Below are positions 20,892-37,509 of a DNA stretch of 37,509 nucleotides, in pieces. The position numbers were made by a program, and so were the translations under genes. How positions within the stretch are numbered: position 1 is the stretch's first letter; each line of letters opens with the position of its first letter. Origin of the DNA: an uncultured bacterium (lineage in GTDB: Bacteria; Actinomycetota; Actinomycetes; S36-B12; CAIYMF01); contig CAIYMF010000208.1 of assembly GCA_903927265.1 (NCBI GenBank), forward strand, positions 1-37,509, written 5' to 3'. A model generated the notes under the pieces. The model did no database searches and was not told the origin of the DNA. It saw nothing but the letters and a program-made list of their open reading frames with translations.

Positions 20892-22556
20892 CTACGCGCG
20901 CAGCGCTTGCAGAGTGCGCCACGCCCGGCAGGCCAACTGCAGGTTGAAGTTGACGTCGGGTTCGCCAAGTGCCAGTCCCGACACTTCGCGGATGCGCTGA
21001 AGTCGGTACTTCAGTGTGCTGCGGTGAATCGACAGGGAAGCCGCGGTTTCGTCGTAGCGGCCGCCGCACTCGAGGTATTGATGGAGGGTGAGTACGAGTT
21101 CGGCGTGACGGTGTTCGTCGTAGTCGAGGAGCGTGCCGAGCCAGTCGCGCACAAACCGCTCAACCTCGCGCGGATCCTCAGCAGCGGCGAGTAGGCGGTA
21201 CACGCCAAGTTGATCGAACACCGTGACGTTCAAAGAACGTGCGTTGCCGCGCTGCAACTGCAGTGCTAGCAGTGCTTCGCGATGCGAGTTCGGAAAGTCT
21301 TCGACTCCGCGTGTCTGACCACCAACACCGATACGACATTGGCCGCCCGCGAGTTCACGCATCACGCCCGCATGCAAGTCGTCCCAGTTGATGTCGCGGT
21401 CAGTGAGTAGCACGACGGTTCCTGCTCGTGACACCAACAGCGTTCCGAGGTTGAGATCACGTGCTGCTCGTCGCACCGAGGTGAAGAACTGGTCGTCGTC
21501 GCGCACTCGGCCGCGACCTTCAAACACGACAACTCGGTGTGGTGCCGTGAGGTCACGTTGGAATGCTTCACCGCGCGGCAGGACGGTCTCGGCGCTGGCA
21601 CCCGACAGCAAGTCTTCGACGAGGTCGCGGCGAATGCGCACCTCGGTGTCGGCGACACTGCGCTGGCGCGCGAGTTCCATCGACAAAATGGTGGCGCCGT
21701 ATTCAAGAGCTGCGAGGTCTTCATCGCGTGCGTGATCGTCGGGATCGAGCAATGCGAGAACGGCAACGGAGTCTGGTCGGGGAGAGGCAGCAACCATGAC
21801 GCGCCCTGACTCGCGTAGAGGACGTCCTTCGCGCAGTAGCCGACGTAGCAATTGCTCGCGCCGCGCTGGCGGATCTTTCGCGTACACCGCTGGTTGCCCC
21901 GGCCCGGCCCACGCACGCAGATTTCCGTAGCGGTCTTCGATGATGGTGGGCAATCCGGTCACTTCATGTACCGCTCGAGCGAGGCTTTCCATGCCTTCGC
22001 CGGAAACCGCTGCGCGCGTCAAGCGGTGGTGAATGTCGATGCGCTGCTGCAGCGCTTCGACAGTGTGTTCTAGTTGCTGATTCACCGAGGCCAATTCGTT
22101 GGCGGCGGCGCGCTCAGCCTGGTGCAGTCGACTGTTGCGAACCGCCGAGCCGATCTGCTGCGAAAGTACACGTAGCAGGAAGTGCTCATCGTTTTCGAGT
22201 TCGCGGGCAGAGGCGACCACCATGTGGCCAGATGAAGCGGAGGCGCTCCCGAGAGCGTAGGCCCAGCCCCATTCCTCGCCTGGCAATTCAAGTGAGCCAC
22301 CGCCGATTGCTACATCATCAAGTGCGGGAGGTTGGGCGTCACCCTTCTCGCCGGGAGTCCACTGGCGCGTCGTTCCGTCAACCGTGCGAACACCCACGAG
22401 CCGACATGACGCGAACGAGGGGGCCGCGCTGGCACCCATGCGCAAGATCTGCTGCTCATCCGTGCTTTCGGTCATGAGCATTGCGAGGACGAGCAATGCG
22501 TTGAGGCGGGAGAGGTGGTCGCGGGCTGCGAGGCCGACCGCCATCTCCGTGCTCAT
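20892..22556 (-). CDS. PucR-family transcriptional regulator with GAF-like sensor
   Basis: About 554 residues. The N-terminal ~170 residues look like a GAF-type sensor, followed by a coiled-coil signalling helix (ANELASVNQQLEHTVEALQQR, cited from its core QQLEHTVEALQQR). A middle region has the weakly conserved GGDEF-like domain of CdaR/PucR proteins. The C-terminus is the PucR helix-turn-helix: YDETAASLSIHRSTLKYRL, then RIREVSGL. The start chosen is ATG 22554-22556, which overlaps the MEDS gene stop (ATGA); longer in-frame versions would run through that gene. PucR-type regulators control catabolic genes on sensing pathway metabolites. Coupling to a MEDS-domain protein suggests a two-part sensor. 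Confidence 0.83.
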   Translation of the reverse strand: MSTEMAVGLAARDHLSRLNALLVLAMLMTESTDEQQILRMGASAAPSFASCRLVGVRTVDGTTRQWTPGEKGDAQPPALDDVAIGGGSLELPGEEWGWAYALGSASASSGHMVVASARELENDEHFLLRVLSQQIGSAVRNSRLHQAERAAANELASVNQQLEHTVEALQQRIDIHHRLTRAAVSGEGMESLARAVHEVTGLPTIIEDRYGNLRAWAGPGQPAVYAKDPPARREQLLRRLLREGRPLRESGRVMVAASPRPDSVAVLALLDPDDHARDEDLAALEYGATILSMELARQRSVADTEVRIRRDLVEDLLSGASAETVLPRGEAFQRDLTAPHRVVVFEGRGRVRDDDQFFTSVRRAARDLNLGTLLVSRAGTVVLLTDRDINWDDLHAGVMRELAGGQCRIGVGGQTRGVEDFPNSHREALLALQLQRGNARSLNVTVFDQLGVYRLLAAAEDPREVERFVRDWLGTLLDYDEHRHAELVLTLHQYLECGGRYDETAASLSIHRSTLKYRLQRIREVSGLALGEPDVNFNLQLACRAWRTLQALRA

Positions 22557-23179
22557 GTGGGTTGTGACCCGGCGTACGACGCGAGGAACTCGTCGGGCTC
22601 GAGGTAGTACGGGTTGTCGAGGAGGCTGCCGCACAGGAGCAGCTTGGGATGAGTGCGGAGCAGGTCAACCACGACGCGACCGTCGAAGAGGTCGAGGTCG
22701 TAGAGGCACAGAATCACTTGGGGGTACTGGGGCAAGAAGCGGTTGAGTTCGGATTCGTACTCGACGAGACCTTCAACACCGGGAAGTTGACGCAGTGCCC
22801 ACGTCATCTCGCCGAGACTGCGAGCGAAGGTGTAATCACCGCTATCGAGGGGGACGCTGATCGCGGTGTTCCAGAAGTCGATCATCGAGTCTTTGGAGAA
22901 GGCACCGTCGCGCAGATAGGTCTCGGTAGAACGCATGACGTCGACCTGGTGGCTGTCGTGGGCGTGCCCGGTGGCTTCGTCAGATCCCAATTCGGCCCAG
23001 AGGTCGTCGGGCTCGACCTGATCGAGAACGGCAATGCACTTGTCGCCTGCGTCAATACCGGCACGAAGGTAGGGCAGCAGCACCTCGTCGCGCCCGACCG
23101 AACCCCGGTAGAACGCGCAGATGTGGTCGCCCGGGGACATGCTCAGTCCGGGCAGTCCGAGTTCGATCGTTGCAGTCAC
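22553..23179 (-). CDS. MEDS-domain sensory protein
   Basis: A 208-residue protein made almost wholly of one MEDS (DcmR-like sensory) domain: PGDHICAFYRGSVGRDEVLLP at the start (cited core GDHICAFY), LRAGIDAGDKCIAV, TYLRDGAFSKDSMIDFW, YTFARSLGEMTWALR, LVEYESELNRF and VILCLYDLDLFDG. MEDS domains are predicted small-molecule-sensing modules with a RecA/KaiC-like core lacking ATPase motifs, often in anti-sigma networks or next to DNA-binding domains. The GTG start at 23179 has AGGAGG just upstream. The stop overlaps the PucR-type start, so both are made together. Confidence 0.82.
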   Translation of the reverse strand: MTATIELGLPGLSMSPGDHICAFYRGSVGRDEVLLPYLRAGIDAGDKCIAVLDQVEPDDLWAELGSDEATGHAHDSHQVDVMRSTETYLRDGAFSKDSMIDFWNTAISVPLDSGDYTFARSLGEMTWALRQLPGVEGLVEYESELNRFLPQYPQVILCLYDLDLFDGRVVVDLLRTHPKLLLCGSLLDNPYYLEPDEFLASYAGSQPT

Positions 23180-24336: not shown

Positions 24337-25764
24337 CTAGATTCCGTACTTGTCCCAGTGCTCACCGAAGAGTTCTTGCTCGGTGAACGTCTTGGGTGCA
24401 ATGGTGCGCGACACCCACGTGAGGTTGAGGAAGTGCTTGGCGTTGACGTTCTCTGTGGTGATGTTGCCACCCCATGAACCACAACTCAGGCTCAGCGTGA
24501 ATGGCAAGCCATTGCGAGCACTTCCGGCGCCCTCATTGAGGTTCTGGTTCACGAGAACGCGCGCCGTGCGCGTTCCGAATGCAATCGCATCGACATGCGC
24601 ATCAACGCTGGTGTGGATTCCGCAGGTATGACCAAGACCCTGGTAGGCAGTGATGTCGTTAATGATCTGCACGGCCTCGTTGATGTCGCTGCCGTAGCGG
24701 TACACGGCCAGAACGACCGAGAGCTTCTCGCCTGAGAACGGGTGCTCGGGGCCAGCGCCGTCTTCTTCAACCATGATGAACGACGTGCCCGCGGGAATGT
24801 CGATGCCTGCGAGTTCGGCGATGGTGGCGGCCGGCTTGGCAATGACGTCAAGGCTAGGAATGTGTCCGCCGTCGGGCCACATAGCCTTCTGCAACTTCGC
24901 CTTCTCTTCGGCGTTACACAGGTAGCCACCGGATGCCTGTAGGCGACCAAGGAGGTCGTCGTACACCGCGTCCGCGATGACCAGTGAGTTGTCGGCGAGG
25001 CAACTGGTTGCGAGGTCGAACGTCTTGCCAGCGACGATCATCGCTGCGGCATCGTCGAGGTCGCCGGTCTCATCAATGACATGCACTGAGTTACCGACAC
25101 CGACACCGTAGGCGGGGGTGCCCGAGCTGTAAGCCGCCTTCACCATCGCGGCGCCACCGGTGGCGACGACGACGTCAGCCTGCTTCATGAGCTCGCGCGT
25201 CTTGTCGATCGACGGCGAGGTAAGGCTGATGATGAGGTCTTCGGGGGCACCGACCTGAGCGCAGGCCGCGCGCATCAGTTCGACCGACATCTCGCTGGTC
25301 TTCTTGGTGCGGGGGTGCGGTGCCACGACGATCGCGTTGCGACCCTTGAGCGCCATGAGCGCCTTCATGGGCGGAGTTGCGTCGGGGCCGGTGGTGGGAA
25401 TGAGTGCGGCGACGACGCCGACGGGCTTGGCGATCTTCACCAGGCCGCGTGCGGGGTCTTCCTCAACGATGCCCACGGTGCGCATGTCGCGCATGTCGGC
25501 GAGCAGGCCGTTCACCCGGCGGCCGATCTTGGTGAGCTTGTCGGCGTAGGTGCCGAAGCCACCTTCGTCGACGGCGAGTTGGGCGAGCGCCTCAGCGTTG
25601 TCCTTACGGACGATGGCCCAACCCACGGCGGTGACGAGGGCGTCAACCTGAGCCTGATCCCAGTCGGCGATTGCCTCTTGAGCGGCCCGGGCGCGTGCGA
25701 CGATGGCGCGAACCTCGGCGGCGGGGTCGGGAGCGGATGTGTCAGTGGGGGAGTCAGTGGCCAT
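24337..25764 (-). CDS. CoA-acylating aldehyde dehydrogenase (sulfoacetaldehyde dehydrogenase/SauS-like)
   Basis: About 475 residues, related to the CoA-acylating aldehyde dehydrogenases (SauS, EutE/PduP, the AdhE N-domain). Visible motifs are KPVGVVAALIPTT, ALKGRNAIVVAPHPR, GGAAMVKAAYSSGTPAYGVG, the catalytic cysteine in KTFDLATSCLADNS, and the family ending SLSCGSWGGNITTENV followed by KHFLNLTWVS. These enzymes oxidise an aldehyde with NAD(P)+ to an acyl-CoA. SauS makes sulfoacetyl-CoA from sulfoacetaldehyde, a molecule chemically close to CoM. The start ATG 25762-25764 is chosen because in-frame sequence further upstream crosses the divergent promoter region. Its position back-to-back with the 2-KPCC homologue suggests it handles an aldehyde of the CoM pathway; the exact substrate is inference. 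Confidence 0.8.
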   Translation of the reverse strand: MATDSPTDTSAPDPAAEVRAIVARARAAQEAIADWDQAQVDALVTAVGWAIVRKDNAEALAQLAVDEGGFGTYADKLTKIGRRVNGLLADMRDMRTVGIVEEDPARGLVKIAKPVGVVAALIPTTGPDATPPMKALMALKGRNAIVVAPHPRTKKTSEMSVELMRAACAQVGAPEDLIISLTSPSIDKTRELMKQADVVVATGGAAMVKAAYSSGTPAYGVGVGNSVHVIDETGDLDDAAAMIVAGKTFDLATSCLADNSLVIADAVYDDLLGRLQASGGYLCNAEEKAKLQKAMWPDGGHIPSLDVIAKPAATIAELAGIDIPAGTSFIMVEEDGAGPEHPFSGEKLSVVLAVYRYGSDINEAVQIINDITAYQGLGHTCGIHTSVDAHVDAIAFGTRTARVLVNQNLNEGAGSARNGLPFTLSLSCGSWGGNITTENVNAKHFLNLTWVSRTIAPKTFTEQELFGEHWDKYGI

Positions 25765-25882: not shown

Positions 25883-27463
25883 ATGACCACAGACGGTATG
25901 GACATCCGAGATATCAGTATCAGTAACGCCGAGTGGCGCGTCATCATCGACGATTTTGAATCGGGCGTGAATCAGGGTCCGATTCTCAATATTGACCCCG
26001 ACGATGACCGCGAATATGACGCCATCTTCATCGGCGGCGGCGCAGGTGGTCGCTTCGGTTCTGCCTACATGAAGGCTGCTGGCGGTCGTCAACTGACGAT
26101 CGACCGCTGGCCCTTCCTCGGCGGATCGTGCCCCCACTTGGCCTGCGTTCCTCACCACCTGTTCTCTGAGGCCGCGCGCGAGCTCGACTACGCGCGCACC
26201 TTCTCGGGCCGCTTCTGGTACCCCGAGTTCGACGAGAGCAAGGCCTCCATCCTCGAGATGGTGCAGCTATTCCTGAGCGGCCGTAATAGCGCGCACTCGT
26301 TCATGAACTACCAGAGCAAGGAGCAGTTGGGGATGGAATACATCCTCAACGCCTCAGCCACCGTCATCGACGCCAACACTGTCGAAGCGGCGGGTCGAAT
26401 CTTCAAAGCCAAGAACATCGTGATCGGAACCGGATCGAGCACGCGTGTGCCCGAGGTTCCGGGCATCGGGCTCAAGGGTGTGTACGACTACGCAACCTTG
26501 ATCGAAGAACTCGACTACGACCCGCGTTCGTGCGTGATCATCGGCGGCTCGAAGGTTGCCATCGAGTACGGCTCGTTCTTCCAAGCGGCAGGTTGCCAGA
26601 CCACGATCCTCGCCCGCAGCCCACTGATGGCCGGAACCGGACTGCACCACGTCGACGACGACCTGCGCGAGTACGTGGTGTGGGGAATGCGTGAGCGCGG
26701 CATCGTGATTCACGACGGAACCGAGACTCTCGAAGTACTGGGTGACGATCGCGTTACCGGTGTTCGCGTCCGCCTATCTGATGGCACGGTCACCGATATT
26801 CCGTGCGAGATGGTCTTCATCGGAACCGGCGAGCGCGCTAACTCTGACGAATACGTCAAGACGTTGGGGGTCGCAGTCGACGACCGCGACTCGATCATCG
26901 TCGACGCGCACATGCGCACCAACGTTCCTGGCGTGTACGCAATCGGCGACATCATCGGTCCGCCGATGGAAATGTTCAAGGCTCGCAAGTGCGGAATGAC
27001 TGCCGCGCGCAACATCATGGGTGAGGACTACACGTTCGACTTCAGTGAGTACCCCGACTTCCTGCACTCAACCTACGAAGTGACGTGGGTGGGATTGTCC
27101 GAGCGTGAAGCGCGCGAGAAGTACGACAACGTCATCGTGTTGCAGATGCCGCCGCCCGGAGTTCCGTACGGCGACATCCCGCTGCCCTGTGCCGACGGAA
27201 CGATGATGCTCGCGTTCACGCATCCTGAGCGCACCGGATTCCAGAAGGCCGTCTTCGACGCCACTTCGCGCAAGTTGGTGGGCGCGCACCACGTCGGATA
27301 CGGAGCCAAGGATGGCTTCCAATACCTCGACCACATGATTCACACCGGCGACGGAGTGACGATCGACCAGATGGCCGAGATGAACGAACTGTTCCTCAAC
27401 CCCAGCCACTTCATTCAGTTGGCGCGTCTGCGCGCCGGCGCGAAGGATCTGAAGTCGCTGTAG
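25883..27463 (+). CDS. xecC: 2-ketopropyl-CoM carboxylase/oxidoreductase homologue
   Basis: The 526-residue flavoprotein matches Xanthobacter 2-KPCC (523 aa) from end to end: REYDAIFIGGGAGGRFGSAY, DRWPFLGGSCPH, HLFSEAARE, PMEMFKARKCG, YPDFLHSTYEV, LGAHHVGYGAKD-like and ELFLNPSHFIQLARLRAG. Diagnostic features are kept: the unusual CxxxxC redox pair (C83, C88), the two arginines that bind the CoM sulfonate (R57 and R368, matching R56 and R365), and the Phe-His pair F504/H509 (matching F501/H506) that replaces the His-Glu of ordinary disulfide oxidoreductases and favours carboxylation. 2-KPCC cleaves 2-ketopropyl-CoM with NADPH and CO2 to CoM and acetoacetate. Here the natural substrate may differ. 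It ends three bases from the convergent CoM-biosynthesis operon. Confidence 0.9.
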   Translation: MTTDGMDIRDISISNAEWRVIIDDFESGVNQGPILNIDPDDDREYDAIFIGGGAGGRFGSAYMKAAGGRQLTIDRWPFLGGSCPHLACVPHHLFSEAARELDYARTFSGRFWYPEFDESKASILEMVQLFLSGRNSAHSFMNYQSKEQLGMEYILNASATVIDANTVEAAGRIFKAKNIVIGTGSSTRVPEVPGIGLKGVYDYATLIEELDYDPRSCVIIGGSKVAIEYGSFFQAAGCQTTILARSPLMAGTGLHHVDDDLREYVVWGMRERGIVIHDGTETLEVLGDDRVTGVRVRLSDGTVTDIPCEMVFIGTGERANSDEYVKTLGVAVDDRDSIIVDAHMRTNVPGVYAIGDIIGPPMEMFKARKCGMTAARNIMGEDYTFDFSEYPDFLHSTYEVTWVGLSEREAREKYDNVIVLQMPPPGVPYGDIPLPCADGTMMLAFTHPERTGFQKAVFDATSRKLVGAHHVGYGAKDGFQYLDHMIHTGDGVTIDQMAEMNELFLNPSHFIQLARLRAGAKDLKSL

Positions 27464-27466
27464 TCG

Positions 27467-28990
27467 TTAGTTCGCAGCAAGGTTGGCGGCGCGTTCACGC
27501 AGTTGCGTGAGCGCGCCGTTGCCGTGCGTGGAGCGATCAGTGAACCACTCACGTTGCGCAGCAACGATCGGGCGTAGTGATGCGATCTCATCGCGCACGA
27601 GGTCGGGCCCGCAGCCGCCCGGCTCGGTGCGGGATGACACGAGGGTCACCGGATCGAGAATGGCTGCGAGATCGAGTGTGCGAGCGGCATCGGGGAGTGA
27701 ACTGCCAGTGAGTTCGACGCAGGAGGCTTCGAGAGTGTTGATTCTGATGGGCTGTGCGGTGCGCAGCGATTCGGCAACAGTGTGGCCGACGATGCGGTAA
27801 GCCGTGCGGTAGTCAAGGCCAGCAACCAGCACCAACTCGTCGGCGATGTCGGTTGAAGCGGTCTGCTGATCGTGAGCGCTACGCGCCATCGCTTCAGCGT
27901 TGATCTGCAGTGTGCGCACGACCACCGTTGCCAGGCGCACAAGTCGCGTGGCGAGTGTGAGAGACGCCGTGACTTCACCGTACGAGTGCAGCCAGTTATC
28001 GGTGGATGCCGAAGGCGTACGCGCGGTAGCGGCAATTCCAGCAAGGCGACCAATCATCGTGCTTGCGCCAGCGCGAATGACCGAAAGCGCATAGGGGTTG
28101 CGCTTCTGTGGCATCAGTACTGACGCGCGGCACAGTGAGGCGTCAACGGTGACCAGCCCGAAACCTGCGCTCGCGAAAATCTGAAGATCTTCGGCCAGTC
28201 GATCGGCCGTGATGACCGACTGAGTGGCGGCGGCGGTGATCTCGATCAAACCATCGATCGTCCACATGGTGTCGCGGGTATTGCGGCCGACGGCAGCGAA
28301 ACCCAAGAGTTCGGCAAGGCGTGCACGATCGAGGTGCATGCGAGTGCCGGCGACTCCACCCGAGCCAGCAGGGGAAATATCGATCCATTCATGCGCTGCG
28401 CGAATCCGTGGAAGATGTCGAGCGGACTCTTCGGCGAAACTCGCGAGGTAGTGGCCGAAGGTCGAAGGCTGCGCCAGTTGCAGATAGGTCGTGTCAGCCC
28501 ACACGGTGTCGGCGAGTTCAATGGCGCGATCGCCCAGCGCGTCGGAGAAGTCGGCGACGGCATCGGCGAGGTCAACGAGTAGGTCTCGCACGGCGAGGCG
28601 AAATGCGATGCGGCCCGCCTCGCGACGAGTGCGACCGAGGTGAACCCATCCCGCAGTGTCGCCGATGCGTCGAGTGAGTTCCTTCTCGCGACTGTTGTAG
28701 GCATCGCCAAGAACGACGTCGTACGGAAAGTCGTCGACAGACACCGCGCCCATCGTCAGCAATTCACCGAGAAGTTCGCGAGCCACGTCGTCACTCACCA
28801 AGCCCGCTTCATGAAGCGCGATGACATGCGCGAGGTCAGCGACGAGCAGGCCGTCATGCAGCATAGGAGCATCGGCAAGTTCAAGTGCGTAGCCAGCGGC
28901 CACTAACTCGGGTGCTGGTCCGGCAGAGATGCGGCCATCGGCACCGAGGTAGCCCTCAGGGGTGGCGGGCTGGTCGGAAGGAGTGCTCAC
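27467..28990 (-). CDS. aspartase/fumarase-superfamily lyase of CoM biosynthesis (ArgH-like, XcbC/XcbD type)
   Basis: A 507-residue member of the aspartase/fumarase superfamily closest in look to argininosuccinate lyase: YLQLAQPSTFGHYL in the position of ArgH THLQRAQP (the usual His replaced by Tyr), and the signature loop SVLMPQKRNPYALSV (about 291-305). The N-terminal opening GYLGADGRISAGPAPE is unlike true ArgH. No arginine gene is nearby, whereas ComA and an XcbE-like enzyme share the operon. In Xanthobacter, two superfamily members, XcbC1 and XcbD1, work in CoM synthesis, and XcbC1 eliminates phosphate from phosphosulfolactate. Which of the two this protein matches cannot be settled by eye. 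The GTG start overlaps the preceding stop (GTGA). It is the last gene of the operon. Confidence 0.78.
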   Translation of the reverse strand: MSTPSDQPATPEGYLGADGRISAGPAPELVAAGYALELADAPMLHDGLLVADLAHVIALHEAGLVSDDVARELLGELLTMGAVSVDDFPYDVVLGDAYNSREKELTRRIGDTAGWVHLGRTRREAGRIAFRLAVRDLLVDLADAVADFSDALGDRAIELADTVWADTTYLQLAQPSTFGHYLASFAEESARHLPRIRAAHEWIDISPAGSGGVAGTRMHLDRARLAELLGFAAVGRNTRDTMWTIDGLIEITAAATQSVITADRLAEDLQIFASAGFGLVTVDASLCRASVLMPQKRNPYALSVIRAGASTMIGRLAGIAATARTPSASTDNWLHSYGEVTASLTLATRLVRLATVVVRTLQINAEAMARSAHDQQTASTDIADELVLVAGLDYRTAYRIVGHTVAESLRTAQPIRINTLEASCVELTGSSLPDAARTLDLAAILDPVTLVSSRTEPGGCGPDLVRDEIASLRPIVAAQREWFTDRSTHGNGALTQLRERAANLAAN

Positions 28991-29964
28991 AAGTCACCAT
29001 CCTGCACGAACAGTGTCGGGGCTCCACCGGAGACAAGGAATACGACCGGACCGGTGACATCGCCATTACCCGCCGCAAAGGCGAGGGCCGCCATCGCCTT
29101 CGCGCAGAAGGGGGGATCGAGGAAGAGCGCTTCGGTGCGTGCCACGAGCGCAGCCGCATCTCGTCCTTCAGTCGACGCGTAGCCATAGCCGGGTCCGATC
29201 CAGCCGTCGACGATGTTGACCTGCGTGGCGAGAGGCGCCGGTGTTCCGATCAATTCGGCGGTACCGGTGGCAAGGGTGAGTACGCGTTCGCGACATTCGT
29301 CGGCGGTGCGGCTGACCGTGACGCCGATGACTTCCGGAAGAATGCCTGCGGCCACAGCGGCCACGAGCCCTGCCTGAGTACCGCACGAACCCGTCGCCAT
29401 CCATAACGTCGGATTCTCAAGGCCAACTGTGCTGGTTTGATCACGCAGTTCGAGTGCTGCCGCCACGTAACCAATGGCGCCGCGTGACGTGGCTCCGCCC
29501 CGTGGCAGTACGACGGGGTTGCGTCCGGCCGCCCGAAGTTCCTGCGCGGTGACTTCGATGAGGGCATCGACCGTCGCACGCGATGGGTCACCGGTGTATT
29601 TGACCGTGGTGCCGATCGTGGAGTGCAGCAAGAGATTGCCTTGCACTGTCGTTGGTGCGTCGCCGTAGAAGCACACCACCGAGTCGAGGCCGCAGCGTCG
29701 CGCAGCGAGGGCGGCCAGCATCGACCAGTTGGACTGGGGTCCTGAACCGGTGACGAGGACGTCGCACTCACGCGCGAGTGCGTCGCCCAGCAGAAACTCG
29801 AGCGGCCGGACCTTGTTGCCGCCGAGGCCGATTCCGGTCAGATCGTCGCGCTTGAACCAGATCTCGACGCCCAACTCTTCTGACAGTCGCGGCGCGGCGA
29901 TCAGCGGTGTGGGAAGCGTGCCAAGACACTCGCGAGCAATAGCTGAGAGATCAGGATCAGCCAT
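28987..29964 (-). CDS. D-cysteine desulfhydrase-like PLP enzyme of CoM biosynthesis (XcbE type)
   Basis: The 325-residue fold-type II PLP enzyme belongs to the D-cysteine desulfhydrase/ACC deaminase family: TPLIAAPRLSEELGVEIWFKRDD (cited core EIWFKRDDLTG), the PLP lysine K51 in GLGGNKVRPLEFLL, GSGPQSNWS, and the phosphate-binding stretch ATGSCGTQAG. In Xanthobacter the homologue XcbE1 is part of CoM synthesis and is thought to act at the sulfur-introducing step. The ATG start at 29962-29964 lies within the end of the upstream lyase gene (8-base overlap); a longer frame exists but would extend deeper into that gene. Its position between the two lyases supports the CoM assignment. Confidence 0.8.
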   Translation of the reverse strand: MADPDLSAIARECLGTLPTPLIAAPRLSEELGVEIWFKRDDLTGIGLGGNKVRPLEFLLGDALARECDVLVTGSGPQSNWSMLAALAARRCGLDSVVCFYGDAPTTVQGNLLLHSTIGTTVKYTGDPSRATVDALIEVTAQELRAAGRNPVVLPRGGATSRGAIGYVAAALELRDQTSTVGLENPTLWMATGSCGTQAGLVAAVAAGILPEVIGVTVSRTADECRERVLTLATGTAELIGTPAPLATQVNIVDGWIGPGYGYASTEGRDAAALVARTEALFLDPPFCAKAMAALAFAAGNGDVTGPVVFLVSGGAPTLFVQDGDL

Positions 29965-31303
29965 CGAGTCGGCCGAGGGTTGCGTCAATGAATCGGGGAA
30001 TGGAACCAAGAGCGCGCGTGGGATCGAGTAACTCGTCGAGTTCGTCATCGGCAATCTGACTGAGTCGATCGTCGGCACGAAGTGCGGTGCGCAGATCGTC
30101 ACCGCGTTCGCGTCCGGCGAGTGATGCTTCGTACACGATGCGATGAGCGGTGTGCTTGCCGACGCGATCGGACAGCGCGCGCATGACTGGTTCGCTCAGT
30201 ACGTAACCGCGTTGCGCATCAAGGTTCGCCCGCATGCGCTCGGTATCAACCTCGAGGCCGATGAGAATACGTTCGACCGCAGCGGTACTGACGGCGCTGT
30301 AGTGGCAGGTTTCGGGAAGGATCACCCACTCGGTCTTCCAGGCACGACCGTCACGTTCATGCCCGTGAATCATGCCTTCAATGGCCAGGTCAGAATTCAC
30401 ACGTACGAGTCGAGCGAGAGTGCTGACGTGCTCTGCCCACTCGGGGTTGCGCTTATGCGGCATGGTGATACTGCCGACGGTTCCGACCGACAATGGCTCT
30501 CGCAGCTCGCCGATCTCGGTGCGCTGCAGTTCGTACACCTCGTCGCCGATCTTGGCGACGGTCGCCGTCACCATCGCCATCAGTGACATGAACTCGGCGA
30601 AACCGTCGCGTGCCGTGAGCCACGGAAGACTGGGAACTGCCAGATCGAGTCGACGTGCGAACGCTTCGATCATTGGCTCGGCGCTGTCGCCCCAGAATTC
30701 CATCGAGCCAAGGCCACCAGCGAGCTGAACCATTTCGCGGCGCGGTCGTGTTTCAGCGATGCGCTGAAGATGCCGGTCAATCTCTTCCGCCCACACCGCG
30801 GCTTTGAAGCCGAACGTGATCGGAAGTCCTGGCTGCCCATGCGTGCGCCCGCACATCAAAGTGTCGCGGTGTGTGCGCGCAAGGTGCAACGCCGCGGTAC
30901 GTGCGGCAGTGAGATTGCCCGTCACGATGTCGCTGATCGTGCGCATGATGAGCGCAGCCCACGTGTCGGAGAGATCTTGCACCGTCGCTCCGTAGTAGAT
31001 CCACTCGCGAGCGTCTTCGGGAAGTCGTTGTTCAAGAATTCGGATGAGACCGAGCGTGGAGTGTCCCGTTGCACGCGTGAGTTCACCGACCTCAACAGGA
31101 TCAGGAAGCCAGTCGGTGATGGCGAGTCGAATTGACTGCGCAGCTTCAGCAGGAACCAGTCCGACCTCAGCCTGAGCCTCAGCAAGAGTGGCAAGGATGT
31201 CGAGCCACGCGCGCAGACGTGCTTCATCGCTGAAGAGATTGCGGGTTTCGTCAGTGCTCCAGAGGTGCCCGTACACCGCTGACCCGGTCAGGTGCGCGCT
31301 CAT
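29957..31303 (-). CDS. aspartase/fumarase-superfamily lyase of CoM biosynthesis (PurB/PcaB-like, XcbC/XcbD type)
   Basis: A 448-residue superfamily member of the PurB/PcaB-like branch: REWIYYGATVQDLSDTW, CGRTHGQPGLPITFG (the conserved His-containing motif), VQLAGGLGSMEFWG, and the signature SITMPHKRNPEWAEHV (about 277-292). Unlike the ArgH-like partner it keeps the canonical THGQP histidine. True PurB works in purine synthesis, but the operon context points to the bacterial CoM pathway, where one such lyase eliminates phosphate from phosphosulfolactate to give sulfoacrylate and the other acts on a later intermediate. The assignment to either step is open. The start ATG (31301-31303) overlaps the preceding stop (ATGA). 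Confidence 0.78.
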   Translation of the reverse strand: MSAHLTGSAVYGHLWSTDETRNLFSDEARLRAWLDILATLAEAQAEVGLVPAEAAQSIRLAITDWLPDPVEVGELTRATGHSTLGLIRILEQRLPEDAREWIYYGATVQDLSDTWAALIMRTISDIVTGNLTAARTAALHLARTHRDTLMCGRTHGQPGLPITFGFKAAVWAEEIDRHLQRIAETRPRREMVQLAGGLGSMEFWGDSAEPMIEAFARRLDLAVPSLPWLTARDGFAEFMSLMAMVTATVAKIGDEVYELQRTEIGELREPLSVGTVGSITMPHKRNPEWAEHVSTLARLVRVNSDLAIEGMIHGHERDGRAWKTEWVILPETCHYSAVSTAAVERILIGLEVDTERMRANLDAQRGYVLSEPVMRALSDRVGKHTAHRIVYEASLAGRERGDDLRTALRADDRLSQIADDELDELLDPTRALGSIPRFIDATLGRLDG

Positions 31304-32229
31304 GGTGTGAGTGCGGAACCGATCTGCTTGGGCTCAGGCAGTGGGCCGACTCCGGTGATCATGCGCAGGGCGAGTCGAATCTCATCAAGGTTCGAACCCC
31401 AGGGAACGATGGCGGTGTTTCCTCGTACTTCAACTCCGCGCTCGAGCAGGCAGCACTTGGTGAGAACGAGTGCTTCCTTACCAAGTTCTTCGGCCCGGTG
31501 GTTGGGGCAGAAGTCGACTTGCTCAGGCTCGTCACCATAGAAGTGCCGGTGGAATTGCACCGAACGCTCGCAACCGATCAAAGTCCAGTCGAGACGCTCG
31601 GGCGGACGCGTGTCGAGGAACGTCACGTCAGCGGGAAGGTCAACACCCGAGCCGCGGCACGGAAGCAGGTATCCGTTCGCAGGGTTATTCTTCGCCATCT
31701 CACGAATGTCGACCGCGTCAAGAACCAAACGAATGGGCGGGAGGTCTTCATCGAATCCGACTGCCTGCTTGGCGAGTTCGAACAGCTTCGCGGGCTCGGG
31801 TGGAACAACTTCAGTGACGATGACCGTGACCGGTTCGGGTTGCCAGATGACGTTGATGTGTTCGTACTTGCCCTGCACGGCGTAGGCGTCAGTGTTGGGT
31901 TGCGCGTGAGCGAGGGCGCTGAATGCGAGCTGCGTGGGATTGCCGACGTCGGTGGTGGGATCGACGATGAACACGATGCGGTCAGGCCCGGCCAGCACGC
32001 GTGCCTCGGTGACAGGCGAAAAAAGCGGCTCGAACGATTCCTTGCGCACTTCGATGAGGGCGCGGTCATCGCCGTTGCTCAGCAGCAGCCACTCAGTGCG
32101 GCGGTAGACCTCGCGGCCCAGAATGTAGTCGAGGATCGCCGACTCATCGTTGAGGTCGATGTCGGCCTCCTGTGCCGACAGCCCACGGTACGGACGAGTC
32201 ATGGTGTTGGGCGCGGGAAGCGGAATCAT
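31300..32229 (-). CDS. uncharacterised protein embedded in the CoM-biosynthesis operon
   Basis: A 309-residue soluble protein I do not recognise. It has no signal peptide or membrane segment. The N-terminal two thirds alternate strands and helices (VLAGPDRIVFIVDPTTDVGNP, INVIWQPEPVTVIVTEVV). The C-terminal third holds clustered potential metal or thiol residues: LLPCRGSG, IGCERSVQFHRHFYGD, DFCPNHRAEE and LTKCCLLERG. The start ATG 32229 lies 12 bases after comA with AGGA at a good distance; its end overlaps the next lyase start (ATGA). Tight packing between comA and the lyases implies a role in the same pathway. The published bacterial route includes a decarboxylation and a reduction, either of which could need such a protein; this is inference. 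Confidence 0.8.
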   Translation of the reverse strand: MIPLPAPNTMTRPYRGLSAQEADIDLNDESAILDYILGREVYRRTEWLLLSNGDDRALIEVRKESFEPLFSPVTEARVLAGPDRIVFIVDPTTDVGNPTQLAFSALAHAQPNTDAYAVQGKYEHINVIWQPEPVTVIVTEVVPPEPAKLFELAKQAVGFDEDLPPIRLVLDAVDIREMAKNNPANGYLLPCRGSGVDLPADVTFLDTRPPERLDWTLIGCERSVQFHRHFYGDEPEQVDFCPNHRAEELGKEALVLTKCCLLERGVEVRGNTAIVPWGSNLDEIRLALRMITGVGPLPEPKQIGSALTP

Positions 32230-32241
32230 GACGTCATCCTG

Positions 32242-33033
32242 TCAGTGGTGGGATGCCTGCACTGGGTTGATAGCCGAGATCTGTAATGCGGTGTCGGCGC
32301 GAAGGCCGAGGCGAAGAGTCTCCAGGGGAATTACGTCATCGGTGGCGATGTTCCCGAGATTCACATCCGGACCCACCGTGGCAATGAACCAGGTTTGCTG
32401 CGCCTTGGAAGGTGCCTCGAAGATGACGCGCTCGAGCGGGATGCGCGCGCCGATTGCGTCGATGAGATCGTCGCGCACGGAGCCATTTCCGTGATAGATG
32501 CCGACCGTGCCACTTTCGCGTCCTTCGGTGACCAGCCACTGAGCTCCGGCCTCGAGGTCGGATTCCATCTCGGCGATCCACTCGTCGGCGATAACAGGAA
32601 CCGACTGGTCTTTCGAGCCAACCTCGGCGGCCACGGTGAAGTCGGTGCTGAATTGACGCACGAGCGCAGCCTTACTTTCGCGATCAAGCAGGCCTAGTCC
32701 GTTGGAGACTTCGACGACTGAAACCCCGCACGACAGCGCCCAGTCACGAAGTTCGGCCACCTTGCCCTGCGCGGCACAGACCTCAAGCAGTGTTCCGCCC
32801 AGACTCACCTCAACGCCGGCCGCCCGGTAGGCCGCAACGCGTTCGCTGAAGTGTGGGTCGACGTAGCCGATACCCCAACCCACCTTGACGATGTCGATCA
32901 GATCGGCGCACTGGGCGATCAAGGCGTGAGTCGCCGGCACCGTGAGGGCCTTGTCGAGAACGTGGGTGAGCCCGCGTGCTCGGGGCTTGGAGACGCGAGA
33001 CGGCAGGGTGAGAAATGTCGGCCCGTTGGGCAT
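32242..33033 (-). CDS. comA: phosphosulfolactate synthase (ComA/XcbB)
   Basis: The 263-residue TIM-barrel protein is a ComA family member: PRARGLTHVLDKAL (about 17-30), DIVKVGWGIGYV (47-58), VEVSLGGTLLEV, GVSVVEVSNGLG, VAAEVGSKD and VIFEAPSKAQQTWFI. It adds sulfite to phosphoenolpyruvate to give (R)-phosphosulfolactate, the committed first step of CoM synthesis in methanogens and in Xanthobacter (XcbB1). GGAGGAG upstream supports ATG 33033. It is the first gene of the five-gene minus-strand operon comA - 309 aa - lyase - PLP enzyme - lyase. ComA homologues also occur in some plants and bacilli for other sulfonates, but the neighbours make CoM the best reading. Confidence 0.92.
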   Translation of the reverse strand: MPNGPTFLTLPSRVSKPRARGLTHVLDKALTVPATHALIAQCADLIDIVKVGWGIGYVDPHFSERVAAYRAAGVEVSLGGTLLEVCAAQGKVAELRDWALSCGVSVVEVSNGLGLLDRESKAALVRQFSTDFTVAAEVGSKDQSVPVIADEWIAEMESDLEAGAQWLVTEGRESGTVGIYHGNGSVRDDLIDAIGARIPLERVIFEAPSKAQQTWFIATVGPDVNLGNIATDDVIPLETLRLGLRADTALQISAINPVQASHH

Positions 33034-33147
33034 CGGTTCTCCTCCCGGTAGGCAGCCGTGCGTGAGGGTCGGAGTATTCGCGACCCCCTGTGATGACCCT
33101 AGGAGACTATGCGCCCAGTCTCACCCGTCCTGAGAGGCCTAAGAATC

Positions 33148-33159
33148 CCAAGTACTTGG
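33148..33159. promoter_or_regulatory. 12-bp perfect palindrome in the divergent CoM promoter region
   Basis: CCAAGTACTTGG is a perfect 12-bp palindrome inside the 194-bp gap between comA (minus) and the disulfide-reductase-like gene (plus). It is well placed to control CoM synthesis and CoM use together. No regulator gene is adjacent. Clear -10/-35 hexamers were not found. Confidence 0.5.
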
Positions 33160-33227
33160 ATCACTGGGGGCATGGGTTACGTGAACGCGGTGCTGACAGT
33201 CTCCGTAGGGAACCCGTGAGGAGACGT

Positions 33228-34595
33228 GTGACTCGGAACTTGGTCGTGATCGGCGGTGGAGCCGCGGGGATGTCGGCTGCCTCGGCCGCCCGCCGCACCG
33301 ACCCAGGTATGTCGATCACGGTCGTGGAGGCGGGTCCGTTCGCCTCCTATGGCGTATGTGGTTTGCCGTACTTCATCTCAGGAGTCATTCCGGAGGCGAA
33401 TTCGCTGATAGCTCTGCCTCCTGAGGAATTCCGCGACAAGCGGCGAATCGATCTACGCCTCGAGGCCACCGTCGATCGGGTCGATCCCGAAGCCCAGGTG
33501 GTCTACTCCGGTTCCGAGGCGTATCCCTTCGACGTTCTGGTGATGGCGTCGGGCGCGGCTCCCATCGTTCCGCCCCTTGCCGGTGTCGACGACCCACGTG
33601 TGGTGACCATTAGGCGTCTTGATGAGGCCATTGCCCTGCGCGACCGTCTCAGTGGGGTCAAGCGCGCGGTGGTGGTCGGCGCCGGTTACGTAGGTTTGGA
33701 AATGGCCGAAGCCCTCGTTGAGCAAGGCATTGAGGTGACGGTGGTCGACCGGCTGCCGCGGGTGATGTCAACAGTCGATGTCGACATCGCTGACATCGTC
33801 GAGCGTGAGGTGCGTGAGCACTGCGAACTGCGCCTCGAATCTGCGTTGGTGGCGTTGCATCCGCGCGCTGATGCGGTGCACGTTGAACTTGATTCCGGAT
33901 CACTTGATGTTGATCTGGTCGTGCTCGCTCTCGGCGTACGGCCTTCAACCGATCTCCTCAAGGATTTCGAACTTCCCGCACTGCCCAATGGTGCGCTCCT
34001 CGTCGACGATCACATGCGGACTCAGCATCCGAATGTGTTGGCCGCGGGGGATTGCATTGCCTTGCACCATCGCGTTCTCAATGGGCCGGCCTTCGTGCCA
34101 CTCGGCCCGGCCGCGAATAAGACGGGGCGAGTGGCGGGCACTGTCGCTGCCGGCGGCGACGCCGCATTTGAAGGAATCGTCGGAACCGCGGTCGTCAAGG
34201 TGTTCGACCTCACGGTGGCGCACACGGGCCTCACGCTGGCCGATGCGCAGGCTGCGGGCTTCGAAGCTGTGGCAACTGACATCACTGCCAAGTCGCGTGC
34301 GAAGTACTACCCAGGTGCCGAGCCTCTGCGCGTGCGCCTGGTTCATCAGGCCGACGGGAAACTGCTGGGCGGTCAGCTCGTCGGTCGTGACGGAGCAGCG
34401 CAACGAGTCGACGTCATCGCAGCGGCCTTGCACACCGGTCTTGGTATCGACGACCTTGCAGCCTTCGATTTGGCATACGCGCCACCGTTCTCACCTGTGT
34501 ATGACCCGCTCACTCAGGCCGCTCAGGCCGCTCAGTTTGCAATGGCAAAGGCATCATTGGGCCGCATGGCCCCACGCGATGGAGGTGCACGCTGA
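33228..34595 (+). CDS. CoA-disulfide-reductase-like flavoprotein
   Basis: A ~455-residue FAD/NAD(P)H oxidoreductase: FAD loop NLVVIGGGAAGMSAA, single active-site cysteine C44 in SYGVCGLPYFISG, NAD(P)H loop AVVVGAGYVGLEMAEAL, VLAAGDCIAL, and the dimerisation domain with TGLTLADAQAAGFE. One Cys in the CGLPY motif is typical of CoA-disulfide reductases and related NADH oxidase/persulfide reductases. The GTG start at 33228 is chosen for its GAGGAG and because it begins the FAD motif; 46 further in-frame codons upstream look non-coding. It leads the plus-strand operon with the CoM-type dehydrogenases, so reduction of CoM disulfide or a CoM mixed disulfide is a reasonable guess. The stop shares one base with the next start. 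Confidence 0.83.
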   Translation: MTRNLVVIGGGAAGMSAASAARRTDPGMSITVVEAGPFASYGVCGLPYFISGVIPEANSLIALPPEEFRDKRRIDLRLEATVDRVDPEAQVVYSGSEAYPFDVLVMASGAAPIVPPLAGVDDPRVVTIRRLDEAIALRDRLSGVKRAVVVGAGYVGLEMAEALVEQGIEVTVVDRLPRVMSTVDVDIADIVEREVREHCELRLESALVALHPRADAVHVELDSGSLDVDLVVLALGVRPSTDLLKDFELPALPNGALLVDDHMRTQHPNVLAAGDCIALHHRVLNGPAFVPLGPAANKTGRVAGTVAAGGDAAFEGIVGTAVVKVFDLTVAHTGLTLADAQAAGFEAVATDITAKSRAKYYPGAEPLRVRLVHQADGKLLGGQLVGRDGAAQRVDVIAAALHTGLGIDDLAAFDLAYAPPFSPVYDPLTQAAQAAQFAMAKASLGRMAPRDGGAR

Positions 34596-35314
34596 TGGGT
34601 GTCGCAGTGGTTACTGGTGCGGCCGGCGGTATCGGAAGTGCCACGGTGCGTCGATTGCATGAAGACGGAATGACGGTGATCGCACTCGATCTCAATGGTG
34701 AGGCAGCGGCCGAGCTGTCACCACATTCCTACGCACTCGATGTGTCGAATGCTGAGCAGGTCGAACTAGTGATGGCTTCGATACTTGCGTCCTGGCCGCG
34801 GGTTGACGTGCTAGTAAACAACGCCGGCATCACCGGTTCGGCTGCGGCTACGACGGTGCACGAGACGCCCGTTGAAGAGTTCGATCGAGTCATGGCAGTT
34901 AACGTGCGAGGCCCATTCCTCTGCACTCGTGCGCTGATTCCTTCGATGCTGGAAGCCGGTCGTGGACACATCATCACGATTGCCTCCATCGCCGGCCTTG
35001 TTGCGTTTCCCGGTCGGTGTGCCTACACGACGTCGAAGGGTGCAGCGCTTCAGTTTGCGCGCTCTGTCGCGATCGACTACGGAGGCCGTGGCATTCGCTC
35101 AAACGCCGTCTGCCCGGGCATGGTCGAGACGCCAATGACTCAATGGCGACTTGACCAGCCAGAACTCCGCGCTCAGATTGAGGCGCAGATTCCTATGGGC
35201 AGGGTGGCGCAACCTGATGAGATCGCCGATGCCGTGTCGGTGTTGGCGTCAGGGCGTCTCGCATATGCAAACGGCTCACCGTTGATCATCGACGGTGGCT
35301 GGTCTTCTAGGTGA
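34595..35314 (+). CDS. xecD: hydroxyalkyl-CoM dehydrogenase, R-HPCDH-like SDR
   Basis: The 239-residue short-chain dehydrogenase matches 2-(R)-hydroxypropyl-CoM dehydrogenase over most of its length: VTGAAGGIG, VLVNNAGITG, EFDRVMAVNVRG, LVAFPGRCAYTTSKGA, NAVCPGMVETPMTQWRLDQP. The catalytic residues are S131, Y144 and K148. R141 and R185 sit at a constant 11-residue offset from R152 and R196, the residues that hold the CoM sulfonate in Xanthobacter R-HPCDH. The enzyme oxidises a CoM-thioether secondary alcohol to the ketone with NAD+, feeding 2-KPCC. ATG at 34595, the last base of the preceding stop codon (TGATG). A strong functional link to CoM is therefore visible in the sequence itself. Confidence 0.86.
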   Translation: MGVAVVTGAAGGIGSATVRRLHEDGMTVIALDLNGEAAAELSPHSYALDVSNAEQVELVMASILASWPRVDVLVNNAGITGSAAATTVHETPVEEFDRVMAVNVRGPFLCTRALIPSMLEAGRGHIITIASIAGLVAFPGRCAYTTSKGAALQFARSVAIDYGGRGIRSNAVCPGMVETPMTQWRLDQPELRAQIEAQIPMGRVAQPDEIADAVSVLASGRLAYANGSPLIIDGGWSSR

Positions 35315-35336
35315 CATCCAATCGAAGGGAAATCCA

Positions 35337-36110
35337 ATGGCAGGCAGGCTCGAAGGCAAGGTCGCGATCATCACGGGCGCGGGCTCAGGAATCGGACGCG
35401 CATCGGCTGAACTATTCGCGCGCGAGGGCGCTGCGGTAGGCGTCCTTGACGTTCGCGCTGAGGCCGCTCAGGAAGTAGCCGACGGGATCAATGCTGCTGG
35501 TGGGCGAGCGCTGGGTCTTGGCGCAGACGTGACCATTGACGCGCAGGTACGCGAGGCGACCGACGCCGTCATTGCAGCATTCGGCGATGTCGCGGTGCTG
35601 TACAACAACGCAGGCATCGGCAGTTCCGGTGCCGTTGATGTGGCGACTGAAGACGACTGGGACCGCTGCTTCGATATCAACGCCAAGGGCACCTTCCTGT
35701 GCTCGCGCGCCGTCGTACCGTCGATGCTGGCTGCTGGTCGCGGTTCGATCATCAACCAGGGATCAGTTGCGGCTCTTGTGGGTGTCGCCAACTTCGCTGC
35801 GTACTGCGCGGCCAAGGGTGCTGTGGTTGCACTGACTCGCTCGATGTCACTTGACCTTGCACCGCGCGGTATTCGTGTTAATGCGATTGCGCCCGGAACG
35901 ATCTACACGCCGTTGATGGAGCCGATGCTCATCGCGCGCGGTGGTGGCGATCTGCAGAAGGGACTCGAGATGACCTTGACCAAGTACCCCATCGGCCGCC
36001 TCGGCGACCCGATCGACATCGCGAACGCGGCGCTATTCCTTGCCAGTGACGAGGCAGCTTTCGTCACCGGTTCCGTGCTCACCGCCGATGGCGGCATGAC
36101 CTCTCAGTAA
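35337..36110 (+). CDS. SDR family dehydrogenase, S-HPCDH-like
   Basis: A 257-residue short-chain dehydrogenase: IITGAGSGIGRAS, LYNNAGIGSSG, QGSVAALVGVANFAAYCAAKGA, NAIAPGTIYTP, TKYPIGRLGDP and AAFVTGSVLTADGGM. Catalytic S143, Y156 and K160 have the same numbers as in Xanthobacter 2-(S)-hydroxypropyl-CoM dehydrogenase, and the segment around KYPIGR and AAFVTG is close to it. Of the two S-HPCDH sulfonate contacts (R211, K214), the Lys is kept (K216) but the Arg is Thr213, so the substrate may not be identical. ATG 35337 has GAAGGGA eight bases upstream and is preferred to an in-frame start at 35295 inside the preceding gene. Confidence 0.82.
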   Translation: MAGRLEGKVAIITGAGSGIGRASAELFAREGAAVGVLDVRAEAAQEVADGINAAGGRALGLGADVTIDAQVREATDAVIAAFGDVAVLYNNAGIGSSGAVDVATEDDWDRCFDINAKGTFLCSRAVVPSMLAAGRGSIINQGSVAALVGVANFAAYCAAKGAVVALTRSMSLDLAPRGIRVNAIAPGTIYTPLMEPMLIARGGGDLQKGLEMTLTKYPIGRLGDPIDIANAALFLASDEAAFVTGSVLTADGGMTSQ

Positions 36111-36118: not shown

Positions 36119-37033
36119 ATGATTTTCCTCGATCCAGACAAGCGCGTCGATCTGGCGACTGCGGCTTCTCACGTAGGAGATGGAGCCCTGTTGGCTCTGG
36201 GTGGGGGATTGTCGTCACGCCTTCCCATGGCACTCGTGCGTGAACTCGTGCGGCAAGGCCGCACGGGTCTGCACGTGGTGGGTTCGGCACACAGCATGGA
36301 TGTTGATTTGCTCGTCGCGGCCGGTGCGCTGTCGATCTGCGAAGAAAGTTACGTGGGCTTTGAACAGGATCTCGGTCTTGCTCCGGCCTACCGACGTGCG
36401 GCTGAGAGCGGCACCATCACGCTGCGCGAAAGTTGTTGCGTCACGATTCTGACGCAGTTGCGTGCGGCCGAGATGGGTCTGCCGTTCCTGCCCGTGCGTG
36501 GCATCAAGGGAACGGACATGCGACGGCTGCATCCCGAATACGCCGAGACGACCTGCCCGTTCACGGGTGAGGTTCTCGTCGCGGTTCCGCCGCTTGTTCC
36601 GGATGTCGCATTGATTCACGCTCCACTCGGTGACCTGCACGGCAATCTGTACCTCGACAAGCCGTACGTTCTTGATGAGCGATTCGCTGGCGCATCGCGT
36701 GCAGTGATCGCGACTGTCGATCGCATCGTGTCGACTGACGAACTCGTCGAGCACGGCATCACCATTCCCGGTCACTACGTGCAGGCGGTGGCCGAGGTGC
36801 CGTTCGGTGCACACCCGGCATCGAGTTACCCCAACTACGCCTACGACCGCGATCACATGGGCGTGTACGTCAAGGCTGCATCCAAGCCTGAGTCGGCTGC
36901 GCAGTACATCCAAGAGTGGGTGATGTTGCCCGATGGCGAGGACGGCTACCGCGCCAAACTGGGCGACGAATCACTTCAGCGCCTCACGACATGGTCTGAG
37001 TCGACCGAAATGTGGAAGGGGCTCTTCGCATGA
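36119..37033 (+). CDS. CoA transferase family I, subunit A
   Basis: A 304-residue family I CoA-transferase alpha subunit of the GctA/IpdA sort: VGDGALLALGGGLSSRLPMALVREL (cited core LALGGGLSSRLPM), GLHVVGSAHSMDVDLLVAAG, GFEQDLGLAPAYRRA, PFLPVRGIKGTD, PDVALIHAPLGDLHGNLYL and AVIATVDRIV. It partners the next gene. AAGGAGA precedes the ATG. Such enzymes move CoA between carboxylic acids. Similar two-subunit CoA transferases accompany CoM-dependent ethene/vinyl chloride gene clusters in actinobacteria, where a CoM-linked acid is thought to be activated. Acetoacetate from a 2-KPCC reaction is another possible acceptor. The stop overlaps the subunit B start (ATGA). Confidence 0.85.
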   Translation: MIFLDPDKRVDLATAASHVGDGALLALGGGLSSRLPMALVRELVRQGRTGLHVVGSAHSMDVDLLVAAGALSICEESYVGFEQDLGLAPAYRRAAESGTITLRESCCVTILTQLRAAEMGLPFLPVRGIKGTDMRRLHPEYAETTCPFTGEVLVAVPPLVPDVALIHAPLGDLHGNLYLDKPYVLDERFAGASRAVIATVDRIVSTDELVEHGITIPGHYVQAVAEVPFGAHPASSYPNYAYDRDHMGVYVKAASKPESAAQYIQEWVMLPDGEDGYRAKLGDESLQRLTTWSESTEMWKGLFA

Positions 37034-37509
37034 CGTACACATTCGACGAATGGTTCGTCGTCACCTTGGCCCGAACCGTCAGTGATCGCGAAGTGGTGTT
37101 CCACGGATTCGGCAGCCCGTGCGCCCAGGTTGCGATGCACGTTGCCAAGCGCACACACGCACCTGACATGTTGCTGATCGAAGGCGCGATGTACGCGGTC
37201 AATCCCACTCCGCCGTTCATTCCGCCCACGGGCAATGACAGCAGTCTCAAGCAGGGCGCCGCGTACAGCATGAAGTTCGAAGAGTTCTTCGACGCCGCGA
37301 TTCGTGGCGACGTTGATCGCATGTTCCTTTCGGGCGGACAGATCGATGCGTATGGCAACACCAATGTGACCGCGGTGGGTCCGTTGGAGAAGCCCAAGGT
37401 CAAGTTGGGCGGTGGCGGTGGCGGGTGCAACATCTCGGCCACCATCGGTCAACTCACTCTGTGGACGACGCGGCACCGCTCAGGTCGCACGTTGGTCGAC
37501 AAGTGCGAC
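37030..37509 (+). CDS. CoA transferase family I, subunit B (partial, cut by window end)
   Basis: An open frame of 160 codons runs from ATG 37030 to the window edge. It begins MTYTFDEWFVVTLARTV and contains VVFHGFGSPCAQVAMHVAKR, APDMLLIEGAMYAVNPTPP, MFLSGGQIDAYGNTNVTAVG and a glycine-rich LGGGGGGCNISA. This fits the beta subunit of GctAB/IpdAB-type CoA transferases. The Glu in LLIEGAMY lies where the catalytic Glu of glutaconate CoA-transferase is expected, but this was judged by eye. The start overlaps the subunit A stop (ATGA), so both subunits are co-translated. The 3' end and any following pathway genes are outside the window. Confidence 0.83.
   Translation, partial: MTYTFDEWFVVTLARTVSDREVVFHGFGSPCAQVAMHVAKRTHAPDMLLIEGAMYAVNPTPPFIPPTGNDSSLKQGAAYSMKFEEFFDAAIRGDVDRMFLSGGQIDAYGNTNVTAVGPLEKPKVKLGGGGGGCNISATIGQLTLWTTRHRSGRTLVDKCD

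Follow-up and report, generated by a model that had tools for sequence, protein, structure and literature searches.

A probable 2-ketopropyl-CoM oxidoreductase/carboxylase in a chromosomal epoxide-catabolism cluster of an uncultured actinobacterium

The closest described systems

2-Ketopropyl-CoM oxidoreductase/carboxylase (2-KPCC) is a rare CO2-fixing relative of the disulfide reductases, and CoM is itself rare in bacteria; the bacterial CoM pathway is reportedly the subject of work by Partovi in 2018 and Wu in 2022. The reference enzyme for the present comparison is XecC of Xanthobacter autotrophicus Py2 (PDB 1mo9, whose title gives 2-ketopropyl-CoM as the bound compound). A propylene strain with 2-KPCC figures in PMC6440738, PMC8727900 places such clusters in mycobacteria and Nocardioides, and PMC11507031 describes clusters for the detoxification of epoxyethane in methanotrophs, Methylohalobius crimeensis among them. 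Nocardioides JS614, according to a section of PMC8784404, normally only cometabolises propene and grows on it upon addition of ethene oxide. Among the titles and opening lines of abstracts listed in our literature search, none reports the pathway in Nanopelagicales-like actinobacteria or the His/Tyr pattern at position 506 described below, which is a weak negative given the thin coverage of subscription journals.

The window, that is, the whole stretch of DNA analysed here, is an entire contig (C208, CAIYMF010000208.1, 37,509 nt) of assembly GCA_903927265.1 (genome G000). Its 2-KPCC homologue resembles XecC in fold, redox pair, Arg pair and Phe-His pair, and likewise has genes for CoM biosynthesis and for the R- and S-hydroxypropyl-CoM dehydrogenases nearby. 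Unlike its Py2 counterpart, the locus is chromosomal and comes from a member of the Actinomycetota; the protein has Leu instead of Asn at residue 85, EaCoMT is not beside 2-KPCC but at the other extreme of the cluster, and an acylating aldehyde dehydrogenase is adjacent. The NAD(P)/FAD-dependent oxidoreductases of the ethene/vinyl chloride clusters of Nocardioides JS614 and Mycolicibacterium chubuense NBB4 are 60-65% identical to the window protein. The gene order on NBB4 plasmid pMYCCH.01 (MEDS, CdaR, aldehyde dehydrogenase, 2-KPCC, xcb genes, CoADR, SDR, CoA-transferases) is that of the window, and the order of the cluster on JS614 plasmid pNOCA01 matches it as well. However, both of these clusters are carried on plasmids, and NBB4 has etnABCD beside EtnE on pMYCCH.02; neither is true here. 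On pNOCA01 (L015), two inverted copies of the block of CoM biosynthesis and CoA-transferase genes flank the 2-KPCC gene.

A 2-KPCC homologue in a CoM gene cluster

The forward-strand ORF at 25883..27463 encodes 526 amino acids and contains an in-frame ATG at 25898, which corresponds to the start of the JS614 and NBB4 homologues. In a phmmer search of the PDB, the top matches were all 2-KPCC (1mo9, 7mgo, 7mgn; E 7.4e-171 for 1mo9), and the next family, lipoamide dehydrogenase, followed at E 7.3e-32. ORF residues 13-526 align end to end with residues 11-523 of 1mo9, and identity to the Py2 enzyme is 50% over the whole length. The sequence-only reading held that the CxxxxC pair, R57/R368 and F504/H509 align with 2-KPCC at near-constant offsets, and this is borne out: the offset from Py2 to the window is +1 for R56/R57, C82/C83 and C87/C88, and +3 for R365/R368, F501/F504 and H506/H509. 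The region F504...H509 is free of gaps, and the Phe-His pair stands in register with Py2 F501/H506. The window protein also has H138, M141, M362 and Q512, and across 82 full-length homologues R56, C82, P83, H84, C87, H90, H137, M140, M361, R365, F501 and Q509 (Py2 numbering) are invariant, including both the redox pair and the R56/R365 pair, which in Py2 binds the sulfonate of CoM. The His-Glu acid-base pair of ordinary disulfide reductases was not found in the window ORF, where F504/H509 stand instead. At positions 56, 365, 501 and 506, this genome's own lipoamide dehydrogenase carries Y, F, H and E, respectively. F501 and H506 are, according to PDB titles, the positions altered in studied 2-KPCC variants (F501H, F501H/H506E). 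The match to 2-KPCC goes far beyond chance.

An AlphaFold model of the 526-aa protein, computed as a monomer and with pLDDT below 50 in the loop 503-507 that bears F504, has a mean pLDDT of 88 and a pTM of 0.87. In its global fold it matches 2-KPCC structures at Z 45.7-45.8 over 511-515 aligned residues, compared with Z 34.6 over 442 residues for the next family. In an NCBIfam scan of the ORF, a 2-KPCC model was absent from the best 25 of 47 families; the best matches were MerA and lipoamide dehydrogenase, all far below cut-off (169.8 bits against 454).

Divergent from the 2-KPCC gene lies a SauS-like acylating aldehyde dehydrogenase gene (24337..25764, minus strand; NF047625, 541.8 bits against a cut-off of 600; 73% identity to JS614), the ORF of which extends to 25947 while its homologues begin near the ATG at 25764. 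Downstream of 2-KPCC, the minus strand carries the CoM biosynthesis genes: an XcbC-like lyase (27467..28990; NF052535, 400.9 bits, cut-off 575; 38% to Py2), an XcbE-like PLP enzyme (28987..30102, which are ORF limits, homologues being about 320 aa long; NF052537, 297.8 bits, cut-off 450), XcbD (29957..31303; NF052536, 660.7 bits, above the cut-off of 600), an XcbA family protein (31300..32229; NF052538, 403.4 bits, above the cut-off of 150) and a ComA/XcbB phosphosulfolactate synthase (32242..33033; PF02679, 257 bits, above cut-off; TIGR03849, 218 bits, cut-off 280). The XcbC- and XcbE-type assignments are the best NCBIfam matches, yet they fall below cut-off. A 2-KPCC-type enzyme has been put forward, in part of PMC11507031, as a functional analogue of XcbA, an idea opposed by the presence of both genes in the window and in nine Methylococcaceae-type methanotroph loci.

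The plus strand continues with a CoA-disulfide-reductase-like flavoprotein of the kind found in etn-type clusters (33090..34595), followed by two SDR genes, one of the R-2-hydroxypropyl-CoM dehydrogenase (XecD) type (34595..35314; PDB 2cfc, E 3.8e-72; 53% to Py2 XecD) and one of the S-2-hydroxypropyl-CoM dehydrogenase (XecE) type (35295..36110; PDB 4gh5, E 1.5e-59). The equivalents of R152 and R196 of 2cfc are kept in the former, as in 49/49 XecD-type sequences; in the latter the K214 equivalent is kept and the R211 equivalent is Thr, as in 31/62, all four being presumably functional positions. CoA-transferase subunit A (36119..37033, plus strand; 69% to JS614) and subunit B (37012..37509, plus strand), which is ended by the contig edge, complete this side. 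At the opposite end of the cluster are a MEDS-domain sensor (22553..23179, minus strand) and a CdaR/PucR-type regulator (20892..22634, minus strand), both as next to etn clusters. A PIG3-type quinone oxidoreductase (23325-24308) separates the regulators from the aldehyde dehydrogenase and was recognised at that site only in the window and in the same-genus locus L025.

The last 141 nt of the window are an exact overlap with the first 141 nt of contig C82, which carries the remainder of CoA-transferase subunit B, then an acyl-CoA synthetase and then EtnE (73% to NBB4). The cluster is flanked on one side by dnaK-dnaJ-clpB. In a same-genus genome (G041), one 374-kb contig carries the whole gene set without interruption, between dnaK-dnaJ-clpB and, as read by eye, fructose-bisphosphate aldolase and pur genes. 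The cluster is therefore placed on the chromosome, as the sequence-only reading had proposed. GC content across the window is even (0.604-0.639 in 2.5-kb steps). By homology, EaCoMT, both dehydrogenases, 2-KPCC and CoM biosynthesis all occur in one genome, and the window 2-KPCC gene is thus, by prediction from its neighbours, part of a complete cluster for CoM biosynthesis and epoxide catabolism. Homology, residues, fold and gene context all favour CoM-thioether cleavage over a generic flavin reductase activity as the predicted function; the adjoining genes for CoM biosynthesis and for R- and S-hydroxypropyl-CoM dehydrogenase homologues support it more strongly than homology, residues and fold.

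Position 506, the XecD-type dehydrogenase and the predicted reaction

The Phe-His pair had been read as the mark that separates the carboxylating enzyme from ordinary disulfide reductases. An alignment of full-length homologues upholds this for the Phe, which is present in 82/82 and sets the whole family apart; the His varies within the family, where 64 of the 82 have it at residue 506, 17 have Tyr instead and one has lost the position. The 82 rows comprise 75 loci from a species-genome scan for 2-KPCC (79 loci, from the best 80 of 88 relatives), five proteins from JS614, NBB4 and Py2 records, a second copy from the same genome on contig C264, and the window. Four partial homologues (L031, L096, L099, L100) were left out of alignment and tree; read separately, the first three have His at 506 and L100 stops before the motif. 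On the maximum-likelihood tree, Tyr506 is found in Methylococcaceae, Methylocystis and L081, and the three states need 4 changes; His506 was lost independently about 2-4 times. In 40 homologues (23 with His, 17 with Tyr), positions 69, 419 and 506 discriminate fully between the two sets, with Q/M/H in the His set and V or P/L/Y in the Tyr set; the window belongs to the His set at each position. The Tyr506 homologues of methanotrophs (Methylobacter, Methylotetracoccus, Methylocystis) share the family and the CoM cluster with the window and differ from it in Tyr506, Leu419, Val or Pro at 69 and the lack of an XecD-type SDR.

Residue 506 varies together with this dehydrogenase. When whole genomes were searched with Py2 XecD, 22/23 His506 genomes reached at least 205 bits and 17/17 Tyr506 genomes gave at most 165; L055, the one His506 genome below this score, carries part of an XecD-type gene at a contig end. 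With the JS614 query, at least 218 bits were reached by 37 out of another 38 genomes and by the genome of the window, and the only one below (L054; 187 bits, 44%) is that of the sequence without His506. Combined, an XecD-type SDR occurs in 60/61 genomes with His506 and in 0/18 without it. An independent-pairs test yielded 3 pairs when all branches were used and 1 when it was restricted to well-supported ones, and the pairs were in step except in draws using L055; because His506 was lost so few times independently, the association cannot reach significance. In L054 (Sporichthya, 4217-5794), the F...H motif is altered and one residue shorter (ELFLNDLIPQL), the other pathway genes were not recognised on its contig and an XecD-type gene was not found in its genome; this homologue is possibly a repurposed relative.

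Hydroxyethyl-CoM is achiral and one SDR would be enough for it, so that the R-hydroxypropyl branch enzyme would be needed only by a chiral C3 or longer epoxide. At the loci of Methylocapsa (L067) and a Beijerinckiaceae neighbour (L068), with His506, the XecD type stands alone, and in Methylocystis (L084, L088), with Tyr506, it is the XecE type that does so. Since the window combines His506 with both SDR types, 2-ketopropyl-CoM, with carboxylation, is our best guess for the substrate. The carboxylation that the sequence-only reading called probable is retained for the window copy as a supported prediction, with which the tracking of the R-hydroxypropyl-CoM dehydrogenase gene by His506 is in keeping.

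Taking the lines of evidence together, we consider that the gene probably encodes an NADPH-dependent 2-KPCC that carries out the final step, cleavage of the thioether, in a CoM-dependent epoxide pathway encoded on the chromosome. EtnE/EaCoMT would convert epoxyalkane and CoM to 2-hydroxyalkyl-CoM, which the R- and S-type SDRs would oxidise to 2-ketoalkyl-CoM. The C83/C88 pair, reduced through FAD and NADPH, would attack the thioether sulfur, releasing CoM and leaving an enolate; with F504/H509 in place of the proton-donating His/Glu pair, the enolate would meet CO2 rather than a proton. A C3 substrate would give acetoacetate, and the CoA-transferase would activate the carboxylation product. 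Substrate, carboxylation and direction are inferred by analogy with Py2 enzymology. Counted against this reading are the missing R211 equivalent of the XecE-type SDR, the NCBIfam result, the low pLDDT of the loop with F504 in the monomer model, the small number of independent changes behind the link of His506 with XecD, and the failure to find a dedicated alkene monooxygenase (see below).

The alternative that survives best, which we rate below even odds and still take seriously, is that the enzyme acts chiefly on 2-ketoethyl-CoM formed from epoxyethane, as in the ethene/vinyl chloride pathway, with C3 turnover secondary; the product, malonate semialdehyde or acetaldehyde, would then be converted to a CoA thioester by the adjacent acylating aldehyde dehydrogenase. 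The gene order shared with JS614 and NBB4, the ethene-type EtnE on C82 and the position of the aldehyde dehydrogenase next to 2-KPCC all fit this, as do the 'CoM reductase/carboxylase' of ethylene metabolism named in part of PMC6440738 and the growth of JS614, which has the same features, on ethene and vinyl chloride (excerpt of PMC8784404). The joint occurrence of His506 and the XecD-type SDR points the other way, as does the finding that the 17 Tyr506 genomes, with the XecE type only, belong mostly to methanotroph lineages exposed to epoxyethane. Moreover, the aldehyde dehydrogenase is no ethene marker: the SauS-like protein was rejected as an indicator of the C2 branch, as it scores at least 650 bits in 10/23 His506 and 13/17 Tyr506 genomes. 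The genome also encodes a propene-type EaCoMT, 76% identical to the Py2 enzyme. 2-Ketoethyl-CoM may nevertheless be an additional substrate of the predicted 2-KPCC, because homologues that share its residues belong to the ethene/vinyl chloride clusters of JS614 and NBB4.

Reductive cleavage of the CoM thioether followed by protonation of the product, that is, a CoM reductase without carboxylation, is improbable: the double name of the ethene-pathway enzyme (PMC6440738, in part) leaves room for it, whereas F504/H509 stand in place of the acid-base pair, and the window protein agrees with the carboxylating enzyme at every other invariant position listed. An ordinary pyridine-nucleotide disulfide reductase of the lipoamide dehydrogenase or mercuric reductase type, to which the best, far sub-threshold NCBIfam matches would point, can be set aside almost entirely in view of the PDB search (E 7e-171 for 2-KPCC against 7e-32), the missing His/Glu pair and the adjoining CoM genes.

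Source of the epoxide and further pathway genes

Among 119 relatives searched, the window's own genome included, 2-KPCC was found in 6, and EaCoMT in exactly the same 6. Soluble diiron monooxygenases (PF02332, a model that recognises NBB4 EtnA and EtnC) are present in three of these carriers (G000, G046, G054) and absent from G041, G049 and G119, listed at 95-97% completeness. The particulate monooxygenase (PF02461) was not found in any of the 6 carriers and was detected in 3/3 control methanotrophs; possession of methane monooxygenase sets the Tyr506 methanotrophs apart from the system of the window. No etnABCD was found after EtnE on C82 or in G041.

The sole PF02332 system of the genome, on contig C296 (L105, 11838-16188; order beta-gap-alpha-gap-reductase), has an alpha subunit closest to phenol hydroxylase (PDB 3u52, E 5e-194) and 55-58% identical, among the matches listed, to plasmid proteins, one of them named DmpN. 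It is not supported as an alkene monooxygenase, being of the phenol-hydroxylase type with an alpha subunit only about 28% identical to EtnC. Phenol-hydroxylase types can attack alkenes, and this system could by analogy serve as an epoxide source for its own genome. The alpha subunit of G046 is likewise closest to phenol hydroxylase, then to toluene monooxygenase. A dedicated alkene monooxygenase was not found by PF02332 and PF02461. M. crimeensis, too, is described in PMC11507031 as lacking one. The epoxide may therefore be supplied by an oxygenase outside these two families, which do not include cytochrome P450, AlkB and flavin monooxygenases, or by other organisms.

A broader reading, which we offer tentatively and regard as rather unlikely to hold in full, joins two propositions: that this Actinomycetota lineage (its carriers include one titled Candidatus Nanopelagicales and another titled LacPavin) has a full epoxide carboxylation pathway without an alkene monooxygenase and lives on epoxides from neighbours such as methanotrophs, and that position 506, with 419 and 69, marks the carboxylating C3 R-branch (His) as opposed to C2-only enzymes (Tyr). 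The epoxides may then be used for growth or detoxified, and a difference in substrate or carboxylation may set the Tyr506 enzymes apart.

The enzyme family and the pathway are already known; what the locus adds is a chromosomal CoM-dependent epoxide pathway, predicted from sequence, in a little-known actinobacterial lineage. Two points merit further attention, the association of His506 with XecD and the absent monooxygenase. The former gives a testable rule, namely that the His of the Phe-His pair goes along with the R-hydroxypropyl-CoM dehydrogenase and gives way to Tyr where that dehydrogenase is missing, and the natural Tyr506 enzymes are ready probes of the role of His506 in carboxylation; the latter prompts one to ask where the epoxide comes from.

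Further pathway genes occur elsewhere in the genome. The propene-type EaCoMT noted above stands alone on contig C113 (L024, 7433-8539), outside any CoM cluster. The second 2-KPCC, 64% identical to that of the window, lies on contig C264 (L019, 10523-15360) and is directly followed by an acetoacetate--CoA ligase (TIGR01217, 779 bits, above cut-off) and a divergent EaCoMT-like protein (about 31%); this set looks like a separate C3 outlet from acetoacetate to acetoacetyl-CoA.
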